Below, piece after piece: positions 19,317 to 43,159 of a stretch of DNA of 47,545 nucleotides; position 1 is the stretch's first letter; the number at the start of each line of letters is the position of its first letter. The DNA is from Synergistes sp. (GTDB lineage Bacteria > Synergistota > Synergistia > Synergistales > Synergistaceae), in NCBI GenBank assembly GCA_017537925.1, contig JAFYJW010000022.1:1-47545 (forward strand), written 5' to 3'. Made by a program: the position numbers and the translations under genes. The notes under the pieces were generated by a model. The model saw only the letters and a program-made list of their open reading frames with translations, did no database searches and was not told the origin of the DNA.

Positions 19317-19889
19317 ATGGCGCAGGTAGTTGACACAAGCGATTTCCGTCCCGGTCTTAAGATCAAATGGGAGGGCGGAATGTGGGTCATTCTCGAATGC
19401 TCCCACCACAAGATGGGGCGCGGCGGCGCGATAGTCAGGGGAAAGCTCCGCAACCTTGAAACAGGATCCAGCGTCGACCAGTCGTTTAAATCCGGCGAAC
19501 GCTTCGAGAGGATCATTTTCGATGAAAAGCCGGCGCAGTACCAGTATAAGGACGGGGAGGACTACGTCTTTATGGATATGGAGTCATACGATCAGGTGAC
19601 TCTCTCCGCCGAGGTGCTTGGCGACGCCGTAAAATATCTTATAGACGACCTCGAGGTCAGCTTCGACATGTACGAGGGACGCGTTATGGGAATAGAGCTT
19701 CCCAATCAGGTCGTCATGAAGATAACAGACACGCCTCCCGGCTTTAAGGGAGACACCGCCTCCGGCGGCGGAAAACCGGCCACTACCGAAACCGGCCTTG
19801 TCATCACGGTGCCGTTCTTTGTCGAGAACGGCGAAGAAGTCGTGGTCGACACAAGGACAGGGGAATATCTTGAGAGGGCAAAGAAATAA
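19317..19889 (+). CDS. efp: Translation elongation factor P with Arg at the loop tip
   Basis: Ribosome-binding factor that relieves stalling at polyproline. ATG 19317 is preceded by AGGGAGG, and the product of 190 residues is normal; an in-frame ATG 72 bp upstream has no family match. All three beta-barrel domains are present: KOW-like 'DFRPGLKIKWEGGMWVIL', the OB domain with 'YEGRVMGIELPNQVVMKITDT', and the C-terminal 'ETGLVITVPFFVENGEEVVVDTRTGEYLER'. The domain I loop reads HKMGRGGA, so the position normally modified (Lys34 in E. coli) is Arg35, and the usual Pro two residues before is Met. No modification enzyme gene is adjacent. Confidence 0.95.
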   Translation: MAQVVDTSDFRPGLKIKWEGGMWVILECSHHKMGRGGAIVRGKLRNLETGSSVDQSFKSGERFERIIFDEKPAQYQYKDGEDYVFMDMESYDQVTLSAEVLGDAVKYLIDDLEVSFDMYEGRVMGIELPNQVVMKITDTPPGFKGDTASGGGKPATTETGLVITVPFFVENGEEVVVDTRTGEYLERAKK

Positions 19890-19938: not shown

Positions 19939-20391
19939 ATGGGCGCACGTGAGAAAATAGCATATCTGAAGGGTCTGATCGACGGACAGAACCTGGCCGC
20001 CGATTCTGCGGACAAGGCGAAGTTTTACGCGGCACTTGTCGAAGCACTTGAGTCCCTGTCTGTTGCCATCGAGGAGCATGAGGAAGTCCACAAGGAGCTT
20101 GACGACTACCTCACCCAGCTGGATGAGGACGTATCGAAGCTCGAGGACGATTTTGACGAACTGACGGAAGATCTGTACGACGAATGCGATGAATGCTCTC
20201 ATCACCATGACGATGACGATGACGAAGATGATGATGACGAGGATTATGAGGAGTTCGACGAGGAAGAGTACGAATCTGTCACATGCCCGAACTGCCGCAA
20301 CGATTTTTATTACGAACCGGCACTGTACAAGGAAGAAGAGGAACTTGTATGCCCGCACTGCGGCAAGCAGTTCAAACTTCCTGAGGATTGA
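19939..20391 (+). CDS. CD1247-like acidic coiled-coil protein with C-terminal zinc ribbon
   Basis: A 150-residue protein. The first 85 residues are helical and match the pattern of the clostridial CD1247-type N-terminal domain ('REKIAYLKGLIDGQN' then 'LDDYLTQLDEDVSKLEDDFDEL'). Then comes CDECSHHH, a run of Asp/Glu (about 92-115), and a zinc ribbon with CPNC and CPHCG. ATG 19939 follows AGGAGGG. It lies between efp and asp23, the same neighbourhood as in many Clostridia. Its biochemical role is not known; the acidic tract and ribbon suggest a protein- or nucleic-acid-binding adaptor. Confidence 0.8.
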   Translation: MGAREKIAYLKGLIDGQNLAADSADKAKFYAALVEALESLSVAIEEHEEVHKELDDYLTQLDEDVSKLEDDFDELTEDLYDECDECSHHHDDDDDEDDDDEDYEEFDEEEYESVTCPNCRNDFYYEPALYKEEEELVCPHCGKQFKLPED

Positions 20392-43062: not shown

Positions 43063-43159
43063 GGAGGCGCTTTTCGGCCGGTGCCGGGCCCGGACTTCAA
43101 ATCCGGTGGAAGGGGTTAACGGCTTCTTCGGTGTGTTCGACCCACACACGCCTCCGCCA
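43063..43159 (+). tRNA. selC: tRNA-Sec (anticodon TCA), selenocysteine tRNA
   Basis: Reads UGA as selenocysteine with SelB. The 97-nt gene, with encoded CCA, has acceptor GGAGGCG (43063-43069) pairing with CGCCTCC (43149-43155), a discriminator G, a D arm of six pairs with a 4-nt CGGT loop, an anticodon arm CCGGA-CTTCAAA-TCCGG (TCA), a long variable arm (GAAG with CTTC) and a T arm GTGTG-TTCGACC-CACAC. The extended D stem, long variable arm and UCA anticodon are diagnostic. The eighth acceptor pair is a C-A mismatch. A possible promoter is TTGCGG (43005) - 17 bp - TATACT (43028). No selA, selB or selD is in the window. Confidence 0.95.

Follow-up and report, generated by a model that had tools for sequence, protein, structure and literature searches.

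An arginine-type elongation factor P in Synergistales without EarP, resembling that of Thermus and Deinococcus and probably working unmodified

Elongation factor P (EF-P) assists the synthesis of proteins rich in proline. In a survey of 1166 EF-P sequences described in PMC6544042, 14.75% carry arginine at the tip of the loop, and proline at position -2 from the tip occurs in 2.33% of these Arg-type proteins. According to the same paper, Pro at -2 nearly inactivated the EF-P of Pseudomonas putida, and the K34R variant of Escherichia coli EF-P had 20% activity; the modification system, as the authors infer, came later than Arg without Pro. PMC2821294 gives Arg for 24.1% of the organisms lacking yjeA/yjeK, and describes as not known how Thermus thermophilus and others manage without modification of the tip. 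Arg-type EF-Ps of organisms without EarP are reported for T. thermophilus, Deinococcus radiodurans and Borrelia burgdorferi in PMC4739656, where the unmodified EF-P of Neisseria meningitidis, an EarP substrate, is described as inactive in E. coli and weak at home. EfpL of E. coli is active with an Arg tip that was found to be unmodified by mass spectrometry (PMC11611912).

The stretch of DNA analysed here, termed the window, comprises 47,545 nucleotides of a Synergistes sp. contig (JAFYJW010000022.1) and contains an efp gene with the following features.

19317..19889, + strand: efp, encoding an elongation factor P of 190 aa; the range includes the stop codon (ORF, domain and profile matches)
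19404..19430, + strand: EF-P tip loop HHKMGRGGA (translation, alignment, model)
19413..19415, + strand: Met33, codon ATG, equivalent to E. coli Pro32, two residues before the tip (alignment)
19419..19421, + strand: Arg35, codon CGC, the tip, equivalent to E. coli Lys34 and to Arg32 of T. thermophilus (alignment)

The gene starts with ATG, is preceded by AGGGAGG and ends with TAA. Scans of residues 2–190 of its product identified the three EF-P Pfam domains PF08207 (KOW-like), PF01132 (OB) and PF09285 (C-terminal) and yielded 238.1 bits on TIGR00038 (cut-off 185.8), which assigns the protein to the elongation factor P family. When aligned with an enterobacterial EF-P (L281, loop FVKPGKGQA), Met33 fell on Pro32 and Arg35 on Lys34. 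Translation and alignment thus confirmed the first-pass annotation, which had read Arg at the modified loop position and Met in place of Pro; the interval it gave (19401–19430) contains the loop, but begins one codon early, at Ser29. The AlphaFold model of the protein (mean pLDDT 90, input alignment of 30 sequences) places the tip loop between predicted strands at residues 21–32 and 38–46, with residues 33–37 in the turn. In a Foldseek search with this model, 1ueb_A, the EF-P of T. thermophilus, came second, and 4v6a_AV, bound to the ribosome, came fifth; by sequence, 1ueb is the nearest solved structure, and its sequence is identical to that in the 70S complex 4v6a. The Arg tip is shared with EfpL/YeiP, in whose EfpL member it works unmodified (PMC11611912), but the window protein scored below both model cut-offs (135 bits on NF003392, cut-off 216; 128 bits on TIGR02178, cut-off 264.05), and this identity was ruled out. 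The presence of a second, Lys-type EF-P was likewise ruled out, as the genome of the window gave one EF-P match only. Directly 3' of efp, positions 19939–20391 of the window encode a protein of 150 aa that has an N-terminal CD1247 domain and ends in CxxC pairs, and a selenocysteine tRNA gene is located at window positions 43063–43155 (67.6 bits, gathering score 47).

The closest likeness is to T. thermophilus EF-P, with which the window protein shares about 48% sequence identity, the Arg tip, a hydrophobic residue at -2 (HHKMGRGGA versus HQKLGRGGA in T. thermophilus), the grouping in trees, and the lack of EarP, which PMC4739656 states for T. thermophilus and which also holds for the search of genome G183, where none was found. 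The two differ in the residue at -2, which is Met here and Leu or Ile there, and in their gene neighbours, as judged by eye. With an Arg tip, no Pro at -2 and no EarP found in its genome, the window protein belongs to the Thermus type. The first-pass annotation had pointed to the loss of Pro and to the lack of an adjacent earP. Losing Pro is not odd, given its rarity in Arg-type EF-Ps (PMC6544042), and Arg without EarP is not new, given the published cases of Thermus, Deinococcus and Borrelia (PMC4739656).

Two trees, calculated without the loop columns from thinned rows and without L313 and L315, which were left out for their long branches, united the EF-Ps of Synergistales and Deinococcota with bootstrap/SH-aLRT values of 98/96 and 98/91, so that both support common descent with the Deinococcota protein. 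Synergistales EF-Ps formed one group with a support of 100 in a tree without loop columns. In a quick tree, the grouping of Synergistales with Deinococcota had an SH-aLRT value of 90 and was not starred. A single origin of all Synergistota EF-Ps was rejected by the AU test in the tree of 70 rows (p 0.0095), but not in that of 73 rows, which included more Deinococcota (p 0.204); hence, neither transfer nor a change in place is established.

To see the loop across the phylum, 149 Synergistota genomes were searched; eight had no EF-P match, and the loops were read from the remaining 141. The tip residue is Arg in 136 and Lys in five, and the residue at -2 is Met in 131, Lys in five and Pro in five; none of the 136 Arg-type proteins has Pro at -2 (131 Met, five Lys). 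The Arg tip is a real and conserved feature, neither a chance finding nor a quirk of the strain, and a strain-specific substitution was ruled out by its occurrence in 136 of the 141 proteins. Relatives with the canonical Lys, as the first-pass annotation had envisaged, do exist, but they are restricted to five genomes (G002, G003, G005, G007 and G009; loop VKPGKGQA), the only searched Synergistota genomes outside Synergistales, the order of the window. In five Arg-type genomes of one genus (L113, L133, L134, L135 and L138), the two residues before Gly are swapped, giving MKGRGG for KMGRGG. The Arg-type EF-P without EarP is a widespread kind that has already been described, for Thermus among others; what is newest is that a single phylum is split between a Lys/Pro/EpmA form and an Arg/Met form with no known enzyme.

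Similar loops were found in other phyla when the genome collection was scanned for the pattern H-x-K-[codon NTG]-G-[R/S]-G-G-A. Of the 80 loci listed, 70 encode an EF-P carrying this loop (KMGRGG 66, KLGRGG 3, KVGRGG 1), and by title these belong to Nitrospirota (30), Synergistota (15), Patescibacteria (11), Chloroflexi (2), Deinococcota (2) and others (10), the latter including Deferribacteraceae, Margulisiibacteriota and Neomarinimicrobiota; because an NTG codon was demanded at -2 and only the matches listed were counted, these tallies indicate breadth rather than frequency. EF-P is present in all 61 Deinococcota genomes searched, and the best-scoring 30 of these 61 proteins have the loops KIGRGGA (26), KMGRGGA (3) and KLGRGGA (1). 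Bacterium UBA2214 (G170; L301, L316) has two EF-Ps, with the loops KMGRGGA and VTPGNWRA, and the EF-P loop in a genome titled Acidobacteria (L314) is RTPGNKRG, with Asn at the tip.

An Arg tip without Pro at -2 is also typical of EarP substrates (PMC6544042), as in Pseudomonas, Neisseria and Shewanella, which would suit rhamnosylation of the window protein by a divergent EarP. The ORFs and domains around efp bore out the first-pass observation that no earP is adjacent, and the genome-wide search for which that annotation had called was run with two models, TIGR03837 and PF10093. With E values up to 0.001 admitted, neither matched anything in the 149 Synergistota genomes, that of the window included, and an EarP elsewhere in the latter genome was ruled out. 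Since the built-in controls of both searches were silent, further positive controls were added. A Burkholderiales genome gave an EarP match of 2.3e-121, and three of 56 genomes of its class had EarP matches, two of them over the cut-off; the Pfam model recognised two of these control-class proteins. Two further possible controls, L171 and L163, gave no EarP match; a genome of Enterobacteriaceae would not be expected to encode EarP. EarP was also not found in any of the 46 Arg-type genomes searched outside Synergistota (46 of 55 such loci; by title 25 Nitrospirota, nine Patescibacteria, two Chloroflexi, two Deinococcota and eight others). Beside each of the three control-class earP genes, the fetched stretch contains efp, with the loops KSGRNAA, KSGRNAA and RGGRNSA. 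KMGRGGA differs from these in having Met instead of Ser or Gly at -2, and Gly-Gly instead of Asn-Ala or Asn-Ser after Arg; with no EarP found in its genome, no small residue at -2 and no Asn following Arg, the window protein is not of the EarP type. RmlD is needed for dTDP-rhamnose. In the genome of the window, the best RmlD match reached 48.5 bits, against a cut-off of 224.05, so that dTDP-rhamnose is apparently not the donor; RmlD was over the cut-off in 19 of 56 Synergistales genomes (one of which, G058, has no EF-P match) and in two of the five Lys-type Synergistota. Taken with the silence of both EarP models, the differing loops and the low RmlD score strongly disfavour a divergent EarP, which we regard as very improbable.

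Lys-type EF-Ps with EpmA, as in E. coli and in Synergistota outside the order, share the EF-P fold and the loop position with the window protein, but have a Lys tip and Pro at -2 where the latter has Arg and Met. The EpmA model gave nothing over the cut-off either within Synergistota or among 48 Arg-type genomes from outside it, and its control, an Enterobacteriaceae genome, was over the cut-off; with Arg at the tip, Met at -2 and no EpmA over the cut-off, the window protein does not belong to the Lys-type/EpmA group. Among the EpmA-model matches listed for Synergistales, the full-length ones are in frames of at least 487 aa, as expected of lysyl-tRNA synthetase, except for a 358-aa frame (G041) that runs into the contig end. 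For EpmB, no match was over the cut-off in the 149 Synergistota genomes. The deoxyhypusine synthase family gave weak matches in nine of 21 genomes, none over the cut-off (19.9 bits in the genome of the window, cut-off 27), and proteins over the cut-off were found in two Deinococcota control genomes.

In all five Lys-type Synergistota genomes, efp overlaps by 4 bp with the next gene, an epmA-like gene of 300–327 codons. Two of the five epmA-like proteins were scanned; each has one PF00152 domain and matches TIGR00462 (EpmA) best, with scores (248 and 268.5 bits) that fall slightly short of its cut-off, 286.9. The tag in these Lys-type Synergistota may be other than beta-lysine. The efp-epmA pairs (L008, L013, L016, L026, L141 and L145) occur without EpmB over the cut-off. 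Three of the five Lys-type genomes (L008, L013 and L026/L145) have a gene for L-lysine 6-transaminase convergent with epmA; the full gene, at L145:107-1480, gave 663.9 bits on TIGR03251 (cut-off 520.8).

The first-pass annotation had left the choice between modification of Arg by a new route and function without modification. Modification of Arg35 by an enzyme not yet described, encoded elsewhere in the genome, would agree with the strong conservation of the tip Arg and its neighbours, and with reports that in most EF-Ps studied in depth the tip residue has to be extended (PMC4739656, PMC6544042). Inspection by eye of the gene families around efp, however, revealed no recognisable modifier, although one mixed cluster of 47 ORFs was left unsorted; these families vary between phyla, and the RmlD result speaks against dTDP-rhamnose as the donor. 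We therefore keep this route as an unlikely alternative, and function without modification fits best. A speculative and rather improbable reading takes the loop K-[hydrophobic]-G-R-G-G-A, which occurs in Synergistota, Deinococcota, Nitrospirota, Patescibacteria and others, either for a common self-sufficient design, in which the hydrophobic residue at -2 and Gly-Gly after Arg would replace the tag, or for the substrate of a widely shared Arg-modifying enzyme not yet described.

The EF-P could also be unmodified and weak, with Uup/YfmR, YebC or similar factors bearing most of the polyproline load. Backup factors of this kind have been described (PMC11611912), and the unmodified Arg-type EF-Ps of proteobacteria are weakly active (PMC4739656, PMC6544042). 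The ratio of observed to expected Pro-Pro was 0.91 (0.81–1.02) in the sampled Arg-type genomes, slightly under expectation, versus 1.16 (1.02–1.27) in the Lys-type genomes, at G+C contents of 56% and 37%, respectively. Per 1000 residues, however, both Pro-Pro (4.0 versus 2.1) and Pro-Pro-Pro (0.35 versus 0.09) were more frequent in the Arg-type sample, a comparison confounded by G+C. Due to this confounding and to the simple ORF calling on which the counts are based, polyproline content does not settle the question of modification. We consider a weak EF-P relieved by such factors quite unlikely.

Overall, the EF-P of the window is best explained as an ordinary Arg EF-P of the Thermus/Deinococcus type that works unmodified, a reading to which we assign a probability of roughly 75%. 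Arg35 would stay unmodified and would touch the tRNA in the way known from the ribosome complex of Thermus, and the protein would be active on polyproline in this form. The weakness of unmodified N. meningitidis EF-P and the 20% activity of E. coli K34R count against this reading, and the absence of the known enzymes leaves room for another one. The occurrence of a Lys/Pro/EpmA form and an Arg/Met form without a known enzyme in one phylum provides a matched pair for probing how EF-P works without a tag, and the loop signature of a hydrophobic residue at -2 and Gly-Gly helps to separate EarP substrates from other Arg EF-Ps.
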